DNA of 43,387 nucleotides from Gemmatimonadota bacterium (GTDB taxonomy: Bacteria; JAAXHH01). Below, in pieces: positions 10,214-17,271 of this stretch. The notes under the pieces are model-generated. The model searched no databases and was not told where the DNA came from. It worked only from the letters and a program-made list of their open reading frames with translations. Position 1 is the first letter of the stretch, and each line of letters begins with the position of its first letter. A program made the translations under genes and the position numbers. The stretch lies in assembly GCA_009837395.1 (NCBI GenBank), contig VXTP01000016.1:52932-96318 (forward strand), read 5' to 3'.

Positions 10214-10921
10214 CTATTCCTTCCTTCTGCGTCTGCGACGCCTGGTGCCCTCACACACGCACTTGGTAAAGTGTTCGTAATCACGATACCTGCTTTGCAT
10301 CTTACGTCTTAGGCGATACATGCAGTCGTAGATCATCTGTCCCATGCGTTGTACGGACACTCCCATCAGTTCGGCAATGTCCGCCCTGGTCAGTTCGCCT
10401 TTCAGTTCCCTGACGTACATTTTCAGGACGGTCCGGCATCGCGGACCCGTGTAGTATTTGAGGGCGGTATGCAAAAGGTAAATCTGTTCTTCTTCTTCCA
10501 GCTTCTTGAATAACCGCCCGGGACCGTTGTTCAGATTGGGGTCTTCGATCTGCAACCCCGACTCGGTGTTCGATGCGAACCAGTCTATATCGACGAACTT
10601 TATTCCCCGCCCCCTTGCGACCCCCATCCGCGAAGGCATGGCGTCCAGACACTTGATCTTGGCGATGCGGATAACGTAGGTGCTCAATGCACTGCGGAAT
10701 TCGAACTTGGGAAGGCTCTGCAAGACCGCGATGAAAATGTCATTGAGGATGTCTTCCTTTTCACTCGCCGGTATCCAGTACGCTTTCTTGTATACCCAGA
10801 AGTGAACGGGCTTGTCCGACATGAAAAACGATTTGTAGAGTAGACTCTGCGCATCCGATCGACCTTCGAGGCATGCGTGTATCAGATGGAAGTCCGCTGG
10901 CCTGCCTGGTTGCTTGTTCAT
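10214..10921 (-). CDS. RNA polymerase sigma factor, ECF/sigma-70 type
   Basis: About 235 residues from the ATG at 10921; a GTG at 10999 would add 26 residues and cannot be excluded. The N-terminal half carries sigma region 2 (SEKEDILNDIFIAVLQSLPKF then SALSTYVIRIAKIKCLD), which binds core polymerase and the -10 element. The C-terminal half carries a region-4 helix-turn-helix (LTRADIAELMGVSVQRMGQM). The last residues are a run of Arg (TRRRRRRRKE), unusual for sigma factors. No anti-sigma gene is adjacent. It is divergent, across a long AT-rich gap, from an MpaB/RND/LolA/porin block that it might control (inference). Neither candidate start has a good Shine-Dalgarno. Confidence 0.8.
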   Translation of the reverse strand: MNKQPGRPADFHLIHACLEGRSDAQSLLYKSFFMSDKPVHFWVYKKAYWIPASEKEDILNDIFIAVLQSLPKFEFRSALSTYVIRIAKIKCLDAMPSRMGVARGRGIKFVDIDWFASNTESGLQIEDPNLNNGPGRLFKKLEEEEQIYLLHTALKYYTGPRCRTVLKMYVRELKGELTRADIAELMGVSVQRMGQMIYDCMYRLRRKMQSRYRDYEHFTKCVCEGTRRRRRRRKE

Positions 10922-11597
10922 GGTCTCAATGAAACTGCCTTTCCATTGAAAGCGCTTGAGATCGAAGGGTCGATCAAGCGCGACGGGTGCATCCGGCACC
11001 TTTAGCGTACCCGGTTCGAAGTATCCGCCCCCGGATATTCCGCTACCCTGTCCCTGCGGCCGTAGGATCTTTCGTGATTCCGACGGTGCAGGGACACGGG
11101 TGCCGGCAACTGACGCTGATTACAGTGGCACTGAAACAGACCGCTGCTCCATCCACGGGCGACGCGGACATCACAGCTGTCTTTCTGTACTGATCGAGGC
11201 GGTAGATGGTACACGCCTGTATGCATCGAAGTGCAGGCCGGATACCCGGCTACTGCTTTTCCTTCGTATCGCAAACCGGTGACAGCCCCGTGGCGCCTTG
11301 TCGCGGCGTACCGGTTTCATGTGCTGTTACGATGCATCCTGAGGCCGGCTTAGTGCATGGTGAGTGATATGCTGTACCGGCCGTTCCAAATATCAGTATA
11401 CCATAATAACAATGCAAAGAACAGTCATATAAAATTAAATTAAGTAAAATATGCACACGTTCAGTTTGGCTTCGACGACGGTGAATCAAGCTGCTTATGT
11501 GTTTAGTCGTGGATAGTGAACGTAAGCACGAAAAAAAATGGAAACTTGACAATTCAGTGGTTTATACGTTAACGTGCAATAATTCAATAATGCAGTA
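10922..11597. other. 676-bp divergent intergenic region with AT-rich core
   Basis: The region lies between the sigma factor and MpaB-like genes. No open frame here looks coding; the short ones have no domain-like composition. From about 11381 to 11600 base composition swings sharply to AT (for example 11401-11460 is mostly A/T) inside an otherwise GC-rich window. A perfect TTGACA lies at 11546-11551. This is the likely regulatory region for both flanking transcription units. Confidence 0.6.
11546..11574 (+). promoter_or_regulatory. Possible promoter of the MpaB-RND operon
   Basis: Perfect TTGACA at 11546-11551. At 17-bp spacing the -10 position reads TTAACG (11569-11574), a poor match. The gene starts at 11598, which would leave a leader of about 15-20 nt without a Shine-Dalgarno. 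Confidence 0.3.
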
Positions 11598-12812
11598 GTG
11601 TATCCGTTCGCCTGGATCCAGGATTCGGTTTTGCTTCAAGTCCCAACGTCTTACGCCAGTGGATATGAGAAGGCGCGGTCCCTGAACCCGGAATACGCCG
11701 ACAACTACATCAGGCACACCATGGTCGGCGACGAGGATCTGGATCCTGTGATGGATGAGCTCGCCGGCATGCCACCGGGCGAGATGCACCAGTACATCCA
11801 TGCAGGGCTGCACCAGGAAGAGGAATGGTTAAGTAGAGCGCCTGAAATCTTGCAGCGCTATTTCCGGGAGGTCGATTCGAAGATCCCCGAATGGGTCGAA
11901 TTCGAATCCTTCCGCCCCGCCGTGGTCGGATTCCACAAGAACATGCCGGAGATCCTGGTGGCTTTCGTGACCGCGGCCCTGCTGGAAGGTTTCACGACGC
12001 TCATCAGCAAGTCCTTCTACCTGACCGGACGGGTTCATTCAGACAACGCAACGCGCCGTTTCAAGCAGAATAACCGTCATCTGCTGGAGATCTTCCTGCC
12101 CGGCGGCCTCCGCAGGGAAGGGGACGGCTACCGGCTTTCCGCCCGGATCCGTTTCGTGCACGCCATGGTACGCCGCCTGATGAAAGATTCCGACATATGG
12201 GACACCGGGGCCTGGGGTACACCCCTGAGCGCGGCACATATCGGTCTGGCGGTCAGTATTTTCTCGGCGCAGATCCTGAAGCATTCCATCTCGCTGGGCG
12301 CCATCTACACCCAGGAAGAAAGGGAGAGTTTCGTAAAGGTCTTTCGGTACACCGGCTACATCATGGGCGTTCCGGAGAGCATCCTCATGAAGGACGAGAG
12401 CGAAGCCCGGACGATCATCGATATCGGCTTCATGTGCGAACCCCCTCCCGACGAGCACTCCATCGCGAACGCAAACGCACTGATCCATGCCGGGCCGGCG
12501 CTGCTGAATATCACGGATCCCGAGGAAGTGGCCGCCGCCCTCAAGACTTTGTATAATATCTCCCGTGCCCTGCTGGGGCACGAACTGGCCGATGCGCTGC
12601 GTTACCCGAAAAGCAGTACCTTTGGCGTCCTGGCCGCCCATCGCTTAAAAAACCGCATCAGCCGTGTGAAGAACCTGTTGTTGAAAACGAGAGGCCGGCA
12701 GACGAAACTGGACAATTTCTCGCAGATGCTTCAGCTTTCGGCTTACGACGATATCGGCATGAGTTACCGGCTTCCCGATAATGTAAAAGCGTCTGAATCC
12801 AGCAAATGGTAG
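11598..12812 (+). CDS. Oxygenase MpaB family protein (DUF2236)
   Basis: 404 residues from GTG 11598, the only start before an upstream stop. Recognised by the DUF2236/MpaB pattern: ARIRFVHAMVRRLM (about 181-194), corresponding to the conserved 'R..HA.VR' helix; WGTPLSAAHIGLAVSIF (about 209-225); and FRYTGYIMGVPESIL (about 250-264), corresponding to 'Y...G..MG.P..L'. The family includes heme-dependent latex-clearing protein (Lcp) and fungal MpaB oxygenases; it is mostly helical. Heme-ligand identity cannot be verified here. No signal peptide is evident. It sits 9 nt before an RND exporter, suggesting that the oxygenated product, perhaps a lipid or isoprenoid, is exported. This coupling is inference. 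Confidence 0.72.
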   Translation: MYPFAWIQDSVLLQVPTSYASGYEKARSLNPEYADNYIRHTMVGDEDLDPVMDELAGMPPGEMHQYIHAGLHQEEEWLSRAPEILQRYFREVDSKIPEWVEFESFRPAVVGFHKNMPEILVAFVTAALLEGFTTLISKSFYLTGRVHSDNATRRFKQNNRHLLEIFLPGGLRREGDGYRLSARIRFVHAMVRRLMKDSDIWDTGAWGTPLSAAHIGLAVSIFSAQILKHSISLGAIYTQEERESFVKVFRYTGYIMGVPESILMKDESEARTIIDIGFMCEPPPDEHSIANANALIHAGPALLNITDPEEVAAALKTLYNISRALLGHELADALRYPKSSTFGVLAAHRLKNRISRVKNLLLKTRGRQTKLDNFSQMLQLSAYDDIGMSYRLPDNVKASESSKW

Positions 12813-12821
12813 CGCGATCAA

Positions 12822-15107
12822 TTGCACCTGGATAACTACATCGACGCAATCCTGCGCCATCGCTGGCTTGTTATTTCGCTTACCTTGCTGTTCATGCTCG
12901 CCATGGCGGCCGGCGGCAGGAATATCACCGTCTCCAACGAGCATCGTGTCATGTTCGGCGAGAACAACCCCCAGCTCGCCGCCTTCGATGCGCTGGAAGA
13001 CATCTACTCTGTTTCCAACACCGCCCTGATCGCCATCGCCCCCCGGGACGGTTCCGTCTTCACCCGGGAAGTGCTCGGCGTCGTCGAAGAACTCACCGAA
13101 ACCGCCTGGCTCGCTCCTTACTCGACGCGGGTGAATTCCCTTACGAACTTTTTCCACAGCGAAGCGATGGAAGACGACCTCATCGTGGGGCCGCTCGTCG
13201 AAGACGCCTCGTCGCTGAGCGAGGCCGACCTGGATCGCGTCCGGACGATCGCGCTAGGTTCCCGGGAAGTGGTCGGACGGCTTGTTTCTCCTGACGGTCG
13301 CGTGGCCGGCCTGGCGGTCAACTTCGTGCTGGGCGACAACCCGGATCTCGCGGTGATCGAGTTGACCGACTACCTGGACGGCATGCTGGACGATGCACGG
13401 GCGGCGAACGGGGAAGTGGACTTCTACCTGACGGGCGACGTGGTCATGAACCGGGCCTTCGCCGATGCCACGCGGGACGACCTGGAAACCCTGCTGCCCA
13501 TCGTCTTCGTCCTCATCGTCATCACCTCGACCCTGCTCATGAAGTCCTTTCTGGGTACGGGCATCATCATCGTCATGATCGGTTTCGTGATCTCGACGAC
13601 CATGGGGCTTGCCGGCTGGTTCCACACGGTATTCAGCCCGGTGAATTCAGGGGTGCCCATTATCGTCATGGCGATTTCCGTCGCCCAGGCGGTCCACATC
13701 ATCACCCACTCGCTCTCAGGGATTAGACGGGGGGAGGACCGGAACGCGGCGGTCGCGCAATCCATAAGGACGAACGCCTACCCGGTATTCCTGGCCTCGA
13801 TCACCACCGCGATCGGGTTCCTCAGCCTGAACTTTTCGGATTCGCCGCCGTTTCACATTCTTGGCAACTTCGTGGCTTTCGGGGTGATCATCACGTTCAT
13901 CTACGCCATGACGCTCCTGCCGGCGCTGCTTTCGGTCCTTCCGTTGCGGGCCCGTGCCGGCAGTTTCCGGCAGCCGGTCTTCTTCGATCGCCTGGGTAAT
14001 TTCGTCGTCTCGCGCCGAAAGCCGCTGCTCTGGTTGATCGGGCTTATGACCGTCGTTCTGATCACCGGCGTGCCCAGGAACGTGTTGACCGACAGCTGGC
14101 CGGATTACTTCGATGAACGCTACGAGTTCCGCCGCGATACGGATTTCGTCATGGACAACCTGACCGGATTGCTGTCCATGGAGTATACGCTGGCCGCGGA
14201 GGAAGAGGGCAGGATCACCGATCCGGAATACCTGCGGCAGGTGGAGGCTTTCGCGGAATGGAACCGGAGTCAGCCCGAAGTGGGCCACGTGCAGGCCTTC
14301 ACGGATATCATGAAGCGGCTGAACAAGAACATGAACGGCGACGATCCGGCCTTCTTCCGGATACCCGATGCCCAGGATCTCGCGTCTCAGTACCTGCTCC
14401 TCTACGAACTGTCACTGCCCTTCGGCAGCGATCTGAACGACCGGATCGATGTGTCCAAGTCCGCGACGCGCATGACGGTCGTGATTCGCGGACGGTCGAG
14501 CCAGGACCTGCAGGACCTGGCCGGCCGGGGCGAGACCTGGCTGCGCGAGAACGCGCCCGCGCTCGCGACCGAAGCCACCGGGTTGAGCGTGGTCTTCGCC
14601 CACATCTCGCAGCGGAATATCGAGTCGATGCTTCGCGGTACGGTGACCGCCATGGTGCTCATCTCGGTCATCCTCGTCCTGGTCTTCAAGAGTTTTCGCT
14701 TCGGCCTCATCAGCCTGTTGCCGAATTTCGTCCCCGCGGCCATGAGTTTCGGGCTTTGGGGGCACCTGGTCGGCGAAGTGGGCATCGCCGCGTCGGTGGT
14801 CATCGTCGTCGCCTTCGGCATCGTCGTGGACGATACGATCCACTTTCTCAGCAGGTATCTCCGGGCGCGCAAAGAGGAGGGCCTGTCGGCAGAAGAAGCG
14901 GTGCGCGTTACCTTCCGGTCGGTGGGGAAGGCGTTGTGGACCACGACGCTGGTTCTTTCCGCCGGGTTCCTGGCCTTCGCGGGTTCCGGTTTCCAGGTGT
15001 CGTGGGCGCTCGGACTGCTGGTCACCATCACCATCGGCTTTGCGATCATTGCCGATTTCCTGCTGCTTCCTCCCCTGCTTATGGCGCTTGACAGGAGAAA
15101 ATCATGA
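12822..15107 (+). CDS. RND superfamily exporter, MMPL/HAE3-like
   Basis: 761 residues from TTG 12822. The architecture is typical of the small (six plus six TM) RND group: TM1 at about residues 12-32, a periplasmic loop to about 220, five TMs between about 222 and 375, then a second repeat with TM at about 395-415, a loop to about 625 and five TMs to the end. The conserved DDTIHFLSRY motif of MMPL/HAE3 proteins is present near the C-terminal TM set. Hopanoid transporter HpnN and mycobacterial MmpL proteins are relatives; hydrophobic or lipid cargo is usual. It follows the MpaB-like gene by 9 nt and overlaps the next gene by 4 nt (ATGA). Confidence 0.88.
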   Translation: MHLDNYIDAILRHRWLVISLTLLFMLAMAAGGRNITVSNEHRVMFGENNPQLAAFDALEDIYSVSNTALIAIAPRDGSVFTREVLGVVEELTETAWLAPYSTRVNSLTNFFHSEAMEDDLIVGPLVEDASSLSEADLDRVRTIALGSREVVGRLVSPDGRVAGLAVNFVLGDNPDLAVIELTDYLDGMLDDARAANGEVDFYLTGDVVMNRAFADATRDDLETLLPIVFVLIVITSTLLMKSFLGTGIIIVMIGFVISTTMGLAGWFHTVFSPVNSGVPIIVMAISVAQAVHIITHSLSGIRRGEDRNAAVAQSIRTNAYPVFLASITTAIGFLSLNFSDSPPFHILGNFVAFGVIITFIYAMTLLPALLSVLPLRARAGSFRQPVFFDRLGNFVVSRRKPLLWLIGLMTVVLITGVPRNVLTDSWPDYFDERYEFRRDTDFVMDNLTGLLSMEYTLAAEEEGRITDPEYLRQVEAFAEWNRSQPEVGHVQAFTDIMKRLNKNMNGDDPAFFRIPDAQDLASQYLLLYELSLPFGSDLNDRIDVSKSATRMTVVIRGRSSQDLQDLAGRGETWLRENAPALATEATGLSVVFAHISQRNIESMLRGTVTAMVLISVILVLVFKSFRFGLISLLPNFVPAAMSFGLWGHLVGEVGIAASVVIVVAFGIVVDDTIHFLSRYLRARKEEGLSAEEAVRVTFRSVGKALWTTTLVLSAGFLAFAGSGFQVSWALGLLVTITIGFAIIADFLLLPPLLMALDRRKS

Positions 15108-16000
15108 AAACAGACCAACCAATACGACCGGCGCGCGTGCGACCGGCGCGCGGACTGCGTGCCGCCCGGTTCTGCCTCCTGGCGATGTTCTTCTTGCCGG
15201 GCATGCCGTCCCAGGAGGCATGGGCAGGCGGACCGGGCAGTCCAGCCAGTCCAGCCGATCCAGGCAGTCCGCCCGATCCGTCGGAAGAAAAGGGGCTCCA
15301 GATCGCCCGTGACGCCCGGAGCCAGGACGAGGGTTTCGGCAATTTCTCGGCCGGCATGACCATGGTCCTGCGCAACAAGAAGGGGCAGGAGAGTGTCCGC
15401 GAAGTGCGCGTGAAGGTGCTCGAGGCGGAAGACGACGGCAACAAGAGTCTCTTCGTGTTCGACCAACCGCGCGATGCCCGGGGCACCGCGCTGCTCATAC
15501 ACGGCCACAAGGACCGGCCGGACGACCAATGGCTCTACCTGCCGGCCCTGAAGCGCGTCAAGCGCATCAGTTCGTCCAACCGTTCGGGTTCCTTCATGGG
15601 TAGCGAGTTTACCTACGAGGACATGACGGTCCAGGAAGTGGAGAAATACACCTACCGGTACCTGCGCGACGAACCCTGCGGAGACGGCCTGGACTGCGTG
15701 GTCACCGAGCGCATCCCGGTGGAGAAGGGATCGGTGTACCGCCGCCAGCTCGTCTGGCGCGACAAGTCGGCGCTGCGCGTCTGGAAAGTGGAATACTACG
15801 ACCGCAAGGACGCCCATCTAAAAACACTTACCGTGGCTGAGTACCGCCAGTATCTCGACCGTTACTGGCGGGCCGGCAGTATGGCCATGGTGAACCATCT
15901 GACGGGCAAGAGCACCGACCTGGTATGGACGGATTACCAGTTCGGGACCGACATCGACGACCGCGACTTCACCCGCACCGGGCTGAGGCGGGTGCGGTGA
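15104..16000 (+). CDS. Outer membrane lipoprotein-sorting (LolA-like) protein
   Basis: 298 residues with an N-terminal signal peptide: basic region RPARVRPARGLRAAR, hydrophobic core CLLAMFFLPG, probable cleavage after AWA at about 42. A Pro/Gly/Ser-rich linker (about 43-60) follows. The mature part fits the LolA-like domain (pfam17131 type) that accompanies RND/MMPL exporters: a run of basic-hydrophobic beta strands with WLYLPALKRVKRISSSNRSG and SFMGSEFTYEDM. It probably shuttles hydrophobic cargo through the periplasm between the RND pump and the outer membrane. ATG overlaps the RND stop. Two 15-bp units duplicate the basic region of the signal peptide (15125-15154). Confidence 0.82.
   Translation: MKTDQPIRPARVRPARGLRAARFCLLAMFFLPGMPSQEAWAGGPGSPASPADPGSPPDPSEEKGLQIARDARSQDEGFGNFSAGMTMVLRNKKGQESVREVRVKVLEAEDDGNKSLFVFDQPRDARGTALLIHGHKDRPDDQWLYLPALKRVKRISSSNRSGSFMGSEFTYEDMTVQEVEKYTYRYLRDEPCGDGLDCVVTERIPVEKGSVYRRQLVWRDKSALRVWKVEYYDRKDAHLKTLTVAEYRQYLDRYWRAGSMAMVNHLTGKSTDLVWTDYQFGTDIDDRDFTRTGLRRVR
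15125..15154. repeat. 15-bp tandem duplication in a signal peptide
   Basis: CGACCGGCGCGCGTG (15125-15139) and CGACCGGCGCGCGGA (15140-15154) are adjacent, encoding the repeated RPARV/RPARG in the positively charged N-region of the LolA-like signal peptide. Confidence 0.85.
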
Positions 16001-17271
16001 TGCCCTCGCGGGCCCTGGTTCGCCTCCTGTGGTTCGGCGTCTGTCTGCTCGGTGTCACGGTGCATCCGGCTACCTCGCACGGTCAGACCGGAAGCTACTA
16101 TACTGACCTGTCGGGCCGGCTGGCCGCAGAAAGCCGGTGGTTTCCCCAGACCGCCCTTTTCCAGGGCCAGGGTTCCCACGCGAGCGGATTCGTAGCGGAA
16201 CCCAACCTCTACCTCGAAGACGAAGCGGGGCGCATCCTCAATGTGACGCCCTGGTTCCGCTACGACAGCGCGGACGACCGCCGAACCCACTTCGACCTGC
16301 GGGAAGCGTACCTCCTGCTTTCCGGCGCCGCCGGCAACGGGGAATGGGAACTGCGCCTCGGGGTCGACCGCGTTTTCTGGGGTGTGGTCGAATCCCGTCA
16401 CCTGGTGGACATCGTCAACCAGATCGACCTGGTGGAACATCCCGACGAAAAGACTCGGATGGGGCAGCCCATGGCCTACGTGACCTGGTCATCAGACTGG
16501 GGCGTGGTGGAACTGCTGGGCATGTCCTGGCACCGGAAACGCACGTTTCCCGGCAGCGACGGACGGCTGCGCGCTTCGGTGGTCGTCGACAATGACCTGG
16601 CGGAATACGAAAGTTCGTACGGGAAGTGGCATCCGGATTTCGCCGCCCGCTACAGCCATACCCTGGGCCTGCTGGACTTCGGGGCCAGCGTATTCGACGG
16701 CACGGCCAGGGAGCCTTCCTTCGGACTGTGCTTTGACTGCGGAGCGCCGTCCGGTCTGCCCGCGCCCGTACTTTATCCTATATACCATCGGATCCGCCAG
16801 TTCGGCCTGGACGCCCAGTGGACCACCGGGTCCCTGCTGCTCAAGCTGGAAGCGATCAGGAGGTCCGGCGCGCGCAACCTGGCGGGCGTGGAAGAGACCT
16901 TCAACGCCTTCGTACTGGGCGGCGAGTACACGTTTTTTTCCTTGTGGAATACGGACGCCGACCTTACCCTCTTCGCCGAATGGGACCGTGACGAACGCGG
17001 CCGCCGCGCCACCAATTTCTATGAGAACGACCTTTTCGCCGCCCTGCGGCTCATGCTGAACGACGTCCAGGGTACGGAGATGACGGTGAGCGTGCTGCAC
17101 GATCTCGACAAGCGTCAGAGCATCTACGGTCTTGAACTGGCGCGCCGGCTATCGGATGCCTTCTCCCTGGACCTGGGAGCGGTCGCGATCACCAACATCG
17201 ACCAGGACGATCTGTACTACGATCTCCGGCAGGACGGTTTCGTTCAACTGGGTATCCATTACCATTTTTGA
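16000..17271 (+). CDS. Outer membrane beta-barrel protein (porin-like, DUF1302-like context)
   Basis: 423 residues from ATG 16000, which overlaps the previous TGA by one base (TGATG). The signal peptide is clear: ALVRLLWFGVCLLGVTV, with cleavage probably after SHG (about 28). The mature chain is rich in alternating aromatic/polar strands (RDSAD..RTHFDLREAYL, WELRLGVDRVFWG, YVTWSSDWGVVELLGMSW) and ends with ...QLGIHYHF, a C-terminal aromatic of the type recognised by the BAM machinery. No family can be named with certainty. It is the last gene of the MpaB-RND-LolA block and would be the outer-membrane receiver or conduit. One CFDC pair is unusual for a barrel. Confidence 0.72.
   Translation: MPSRALVRLLWFGVCLLGVTVHPATSHGQTGSYYTDLSGRLAAESRWFPQTALFQGQGSHASGFVAEPNLYLEDEAGRILNVTPWFRYDSADDRRTHFDLREAYLLLSGAAGNGEWELRLGVDRVFWGVVESRHLVDIVNQIDLVEHPDEKTRMGQPMAYVTWSSDWGVVELLGMSWHRKRTFPGSDGRLRASVVVDNDLAEYESSYGKWHPDFAARYSHTLGLLDFGASVFDGTAREPSFGLCFDCGAPSGLPAPVLYPIYHRIRQFGLDAQWTTGSLLLKLEAIRRSGARNLAGVEETFNAFVLGGEYTFFSLWNTDADLTLFAEWDRDERGRRATNFYENDLFAALRLMLNDVQGTEMTVSVLHDLDKRQSIYGLELARRLSDAFSLDLGAVAITNIDQDDLYYDLRQDGFVQLGIHYHF

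Follow-up and report, generated by a model that had tools for sequence, protein, structure and literature searches.

A sigma factor gene and four genes divergent from it, found in a 43,387-nucleotide stretch of bacterial DNA (contig VXTP01000016.1; the whole stretch is called the window here), may constitute an oxidise-and-export module for a hydrophobic, probably isoprenoid compound. The four-gene block joins a gene for a putative heme oxygenase of the MpaB/Lcp type (mpaB1) to genes for a resistance-nodulation-division (RND) pump, a LolA-like periplasmic carrier and a presumed outer-membrane barrel. By analogy with known exporters, we give the oxidise-and-export reading a probability of roughly 0.45. 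The gene order itself is more than chance, since it is kept across the genus. The features are listed below in coordinates of the whole stretch.

11598..12812, plus strand: mpaB1, MpaB/Lcp-type (DUF2236) putative heme oxygenase of 404 amino acids, GTG start, PF09995
12822..15107, plus strand: HAE3/MMPL-type RND pump (mmpl) of 761 amino acids, TTG start, PF03176, aspartates D670/D671
15104..16000, plus strand: LolA-like periplasmic carrier (lolA), PF17131/DUF1329, signal-peptide-like N-terminus
16000..17271, plus strand: presumed outer-membrane barrel, start ATG 16000, alternative GTG 15997
10214..10921, minus strand: extracytoplasmic function (ECF)-like sigma-70 factor gene, start ATG 10921, reading frame open to GTG 10999, matches to Sigma70_r2 and TIGR02937
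9950..10211 (ends approximate), minus strand: what is left of an anti-sigma-like gene; the ATG end and the 3' end can still be recognised, and a deletion has removed the middle, which held the HxxxCxxC motif
10952..10981, no strand: palindrome 5' of the sigma ATG (GCGCTTGA...TCAAGCGC)
11196..11319, no strand assigned: conserved noncoding block of 124 bp between sigma and mpaB1, either an RNA or a DNA element

The sequence-only reading had described a sigma gene, a 676-bp gap and four tightly packed, co-oriented genes, and this layout was found exactly as described. The gap extends from the sigma ATG (10921) to the mpaB1 GTG (11598). A 9-bp gap separates the end of mpaB1 (12812) from the TTG of mmpl (12822), mmpl and lolA overlap by 4 bp (15104-15107), and the end of lolA and the barrel ATG both fall on position 16000, a 1-bp overlap.

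Conservation was followed in 12 genomes of the genus, including that of the window. The run of ispG, sigma gene, gap, pump, lolA and barrel was kept in all 12 as far as the contigs reach, and mpaB1 lies immediately ahead of the pump gene in 11 of them. The block of genome G009 is spread over two contigs with the break inside mpaB, and the contig of G011 stops inside lolA. G005 has an intact exporter with an empty slot ahead of the pump; an mpaB of another clade (mpaB2, 47% identical) is located between the barrel and a dapA-like gene. The mpaB2 clade is also represented by a lone second copy, remote from any exporter, in G000, G002 and G003. Four genomes from elsewhere in the order lack mpaB. 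At the G006 locus (L025:7992-11497) mpaB is interrupted by an in-frame TGA and the mmpl frame is broken, through either decay or an assembly error. The mpaB of G008 (L027:8001-9188) is 94% identical to that of the window, closer than ispG third codon positions predict, and recombination within the genus is a likely explanation. The draft genome that contains the window measures 3.8 Mb, and its nearest named relatives are mostly metagenome-assembled genomes of Candidatus Latescibacterota, one being labelled Gemmatimonadetes. The window genome belongs to Candidatus Latescibacterota. Latescibacterota are known sponge associates (PMC12993501), and the genomes studied here probably come from sponges as well.

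A profile of these MpaB proteins was searched across 384 genomes, and two further genera proved to hold close relatives. One is g254 (order mates of G289), where two pump genes flank mpaB in at least four genomes (G289, G389, G391 and G386), and these mmpl-mpaB-mmpl runs sit 3' of a branched-chain-type ATP-binding cassette transporter (for example L123:6003-12171 and L148:2056-13468; G386 carries further copies of mpaB and pump genes as well as fragments). Contigs of G387 and G390 hold parts of the same arrangement, and G388 has a lone mpaB copy. In the tree, the g254 mpaB located between pumps is the sister of mpaB1 (support 1.0); an mpaB2-like copy of G386 is also found inside a pump cluster. 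The g254 pumps are 60-66% identical to the window pump, whereas the pump of G012, the nearest in the window's own family, reaches only 21%. Hence the pairing of mpaB with this pump subfamily is met in three different arrangements. A lack of linkage between mpaB and the transporter in relatives had been set beforehand as a refuting outcome; the linkage was conserved within the genus and turned up, differently arranged, in an unrelated one. The recurrence in three arrangements, together with the pump identities, suggests that the mpaB-pump pair was probably moved between phyla by horizontal spread. One ancestral transfer followed by rearrangement is a possible alternative. No pump-type neighbours were seen beside the mpaB homologues of six more distant DUF2236 genomes. 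Linkage of DUF2236 with MMPL or DUF1302 was not found in the literature searched, and among the papers listed there none named MpaB and MMPL together.

The MpaB/DUF2236 assignment was supported by a profile search (PF09995, MPAB_Lcp_cat, 60.3 bits, cut-off 23), and no signal peptide was seen in the MpaB1 protein. MpaB enzymes catalyze C=C cleavage in isoprenoids or polymers (PMC12724181), and the active-site residues of Lcp are Arg164, Thr168 and His198 (PMC5522427). In a hidden Markov model alignment to LcpK30 (5O1L/5O1M), H188, R185 and R192 of MpaB1 align with H198, R195 and R202. R154 is invariant, and its spacing (34 residues to the histidine) equals that of Lcp R164. By spacing, Q157 and N158 occupy the positions of Lcp K167 and T168; N158 is invariant within the mpaB clade, and more distant members carry T. 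Because the histidine and arginines are kept but T168 is replaced by N158, MpaB1 likely binds heme and its chemistry may differ from that of Lcp. An AlphaFold2 model was too poor for a fold search (predicted local distance difference test, pLDDT, 36.9). The protein shares the PF09995 domain, the heme histidine and the arginines with the Lcp rubber oxygenase, MpaB and Nro1 (PMC5522427, PMC12724181), and differs from them at the N158 and Q157 positions, in not being secreted and in its linkage to a pump.

The pump matched PF03176 (MMPL, 146 bits), and HAE3 (TIGR00921) was its best NCBIfam model, with a score of 141 bits that stays under the cut-off of 351.9. The aspartate pair D670/D671 is located within a hydrophobic segment in the second half of the protein. 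Scores against the HpnN equivalogs were far lower than their cut-offs (86.9 vs 751.85 bits for TIGR03480; 47.3 vs 1100 bits for NF052374). The LolA-like protein matched PF17131 (LolA_like, 201 bits), DUF1329 (31.9 bits, cut-off 23.1) and the solved structure PDB 3BK5 (E-value 1e-83). The outer-membrane barrel is presumed from a signal-peptide-like start, a C-terminal Phe and the place in the block; no family scored above threshold in a profile search, the best being DUF1302 with an E-value of 0.19. Likeness to the DUF1302 protein of G012 is local only, and the AlphaFold2 model (pLDDT 29.2) was too poor for a fold search.

The closest characterised system is AmeABCD of Castellaniella defragrans, and by analogy the window block may work in a similar way. 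AmeABCD combines an HAE3 pump, a LolA/DUF1329 protein and a DUF1302 outer-membrane protein and exports monoterpenes, which also induce it; deletion mutants show lower monoterpene tolerance and higher dye accumulation (PMC6394551). Likewise, the HAE3-like pump of the window is encoded with a LolA-superfamily (DUF1329) periplasmic protein and an outer-membrane protein. The window adds the MpaB oxygenase, which AmeABCD lacks, and the divergent sigma gene; its barrel was not recognised as DUF1302, and no gene for a periplasmic protein of the AmeC type (COG4447) lies within the four-gene block. In Thalassolituus oleivorans (TOL_3187/TOL_3188) an MMPL-LolA fusion is up 42-fold on the n-C28 alkane and the adjoining porin is expressed only on n-C28 (PMC6304351). 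Here too an MMPL pump and a LolA-like protein, fused in Thalassolituus, are found beside a porin and tied to long hydrocarbons; no MpaB or sigma gene is described there, and the authors propose alkane passage (PMC6304351). The sterol transporters BstA/BstB/BstC (PMC10942540) and HpnN resemble the window system in relying on an RND pump for isoprenoid lipids; Bst also has partners in the periplasm and the outer membrane. However, the BstA and HpnN models match the window pump weakly. In G012 (L092:6360-18646) an MMPL-LolA fusion and a DUF1302 gene are surrounded by genes for an oxygenase of the RPE65 type, a carotenoid-cleavage family, a CrtI-like oxidoreductase, a halogenase-like flavoprotein and ketosynthases. 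This is another oxygenase near such an exporter.

With regard to the cargo, the squalene genes HpnC, HpnD and HpnE lie in one run in the window genome (L167:8113-11635). Equivalog scores were above the cut-offs (HpnC and HpnD scored on G005, HpnE on G000). No match to squalene-hopene cyclase above cut-off was obtained in the genus, and hopanoid export was rejected on this ground. Because HpnCDE are present and the hopene cyclase was not detected, a squalene-derived C30 isoprenoid or C30 polyene is a plausible cargo. A host terpenoid is the other candidate. Geranyl-CoA carboxylase was considered for the downstream genes and rejected, as these are of the propionyl-CoA carboxylase type.

The sigma factor is of the ECF type, as had been proposed (Sigma70_r2, 27.1 bits, cut-off 24; TIGR02937 sigma70-ECF, 48.3, cut-off 42.9). 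Its start is probably ATG 10921, because the stretch reaching up to GTG 10999 is not in frame in G007 and is garbled in G008. Directly 3' of the sigma gene, five of the 12 genomes (G004, G005, G008, G009 and G011) have an intact 232-codon frame with an HxxxCxxC motif (for example L039:462-1148). In the other seven, including the window, the middle of this frame is deleted and both ends are left. The encoded protein resembles soluble anti-sigma factors of the zinc-finger type, with no Pfam zinc-finger match. Between the groups with and without the intact frame the sigma factors are 72-76% identical and the pumps 89-92%. The 124-bp block is 88-89% identical between the groups, compared with 63-67% at ispG third codon positions. 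It is single-copy and present in all 12 congeners, also in G005 where the slot is without mpaB, and in none of the four other genomes. The intergenic region had no Rfam matches. A structured RNA was unsupported for the 124-bp block (0 of 42 pairs covary); single-sequence folding gave z scores between -1.4 and -2.6 for the sense strand and of -2.2 for the opposite strand. In the palindrome one base pair is altered on both sides among relatives, but as a signal near the sigma start it was not above shuffled controls. The two sides of the gap, towards sigma and towards mpaB1, had no promoter-like word or bipartite motif in common, and a sigma-70 promoter scan gave a promoter count equal to that of shuffles. 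Going by conserved synteny, the sigma factor may be dedicated to the block.

Taken as an oxidise-and-export module, the block would operate as follows. The MpaB-type heme oxygenase, cytoplasmic or at the membrane surface, would modify a hydrophobic compound, probably an isoprenoid, that is located in or at the inner membrane. Driven by the proton gradient, the HAE3/MMPL pump would carry the product over to the periplasmic side, where the LolA-like protein, with its lipid-binding fold, would ferry it across the periplasm. By analogy with AmeABCD, the barrel would then pass it into or through the outer membrane. The divergent sigma factor, formerly paired with the anti-sigma-like protein, would control the block.

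Gene content, order and conservation, the recurrent mpaB-pump linkage and the kept heme-site residues partly support the oxidise-and-export claim made from the sequence, the steps of oxidation and export being drawn by analogy. Several observations weigh against it. The K167 and T168 pair of Lcp proper gives way to Q157 and N158, so that the chemistry may be a different one. Squalene synthase was rejected as a predictor of the module, being equally present in g254 relatives without mpaB. Solitary mpaB copies (L038, L150, L153 and L154) are not bound to exporters. In g100 and at one g254 locus (L155, with cysDN-like genes nearby) mpaB is joined to a sulfotransferase gene (L124:7081-9333, L125:7923-10132, L126:8184-10423 and L155:4957-6854). 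LolA-like and barrel genes are absent beside the g254 pumps. The complete inner-to-outer-membrane route claimed for the block has a characterised parallel in AmeABCD (PMC6394551), but its LolA-like and barrel parts are not obligatory partners of mpaB, since g254 has mpaB and pump only. Finally, it is by way of inference that we arrive at the substrate, the transport direction and the sigma control.

Three other explanations were weighed. The pump might expel foreign terpenoids or other hydrophobic compounds, such as those of a sponge host, with MpaB oxidising them and no product of the cell's own involved. The lowered monoterpene tolerance of AmeABCD deletions (PMC6394551) agrees with such detoxification, sigma/anti-sigma control would fit a stress response, and spread across phyla fits an acquired tolerance trait. 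The loss of the anti-sigma-like gene in seven of 12 genomes, however, fits constitutive rather than induced use, and the linkage is uniform throughout the genus; we regard detoxification as rather unlikely.

Transport might also run inwards, with barrel, LolA-like protein and pump admitting a long hydrocarbon or isoprenoid and MpaB carrying out the initial oxidation, much as Lcp acts on rubber. The n-C28 response of the Thalassolituus fusion and porin (PMC6304351) and the carboxylase set downstream of the block are in line with uptake and catabolism. This carboxylase resembles an ordinary propionyl-CoA carboxylase and not a terpene enzyme, however, and the characterised RND pumps of this family are exporters, which makes uptake quite improbable. 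We are equally doubtful that mpaB is a mere passenger of a horizontally spread module, standing beside the pump by shared descent without a functional tie. Copies of mpaB without pumps occur in several genomes, and both genes were exchanged between phyla, but without such a tie it is difficult to account for the three arrangements and for the G005 replacement by an mpaB from a different clade.

A more specific form of the oxidise-and-export reading can be put forward, which we consider unlikely as a whole. Here an undescribed, widespread clade of MpaB heme oxygenases would oxidatively cleave squalene or a C30 polyene within the inner membrane and hand the product directly to the HAE3 pump, yielding a surface lipid or a secreted signal; the window's genus would have added the carrier and the barrel as a way to the cell surface, and the sigma factor would have been freed from its anti-sigma factor.

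Cassettes of HAE3 pump, LolA and barrel are common, mostly without known cargo. The linked oxygenase narrows the cargo to a compound with an oxidisable double bond or a comparable group. Given the replacement in G005 and the g254 loci where enzyme and pump are paired, few genes would be needed to test the coupling.

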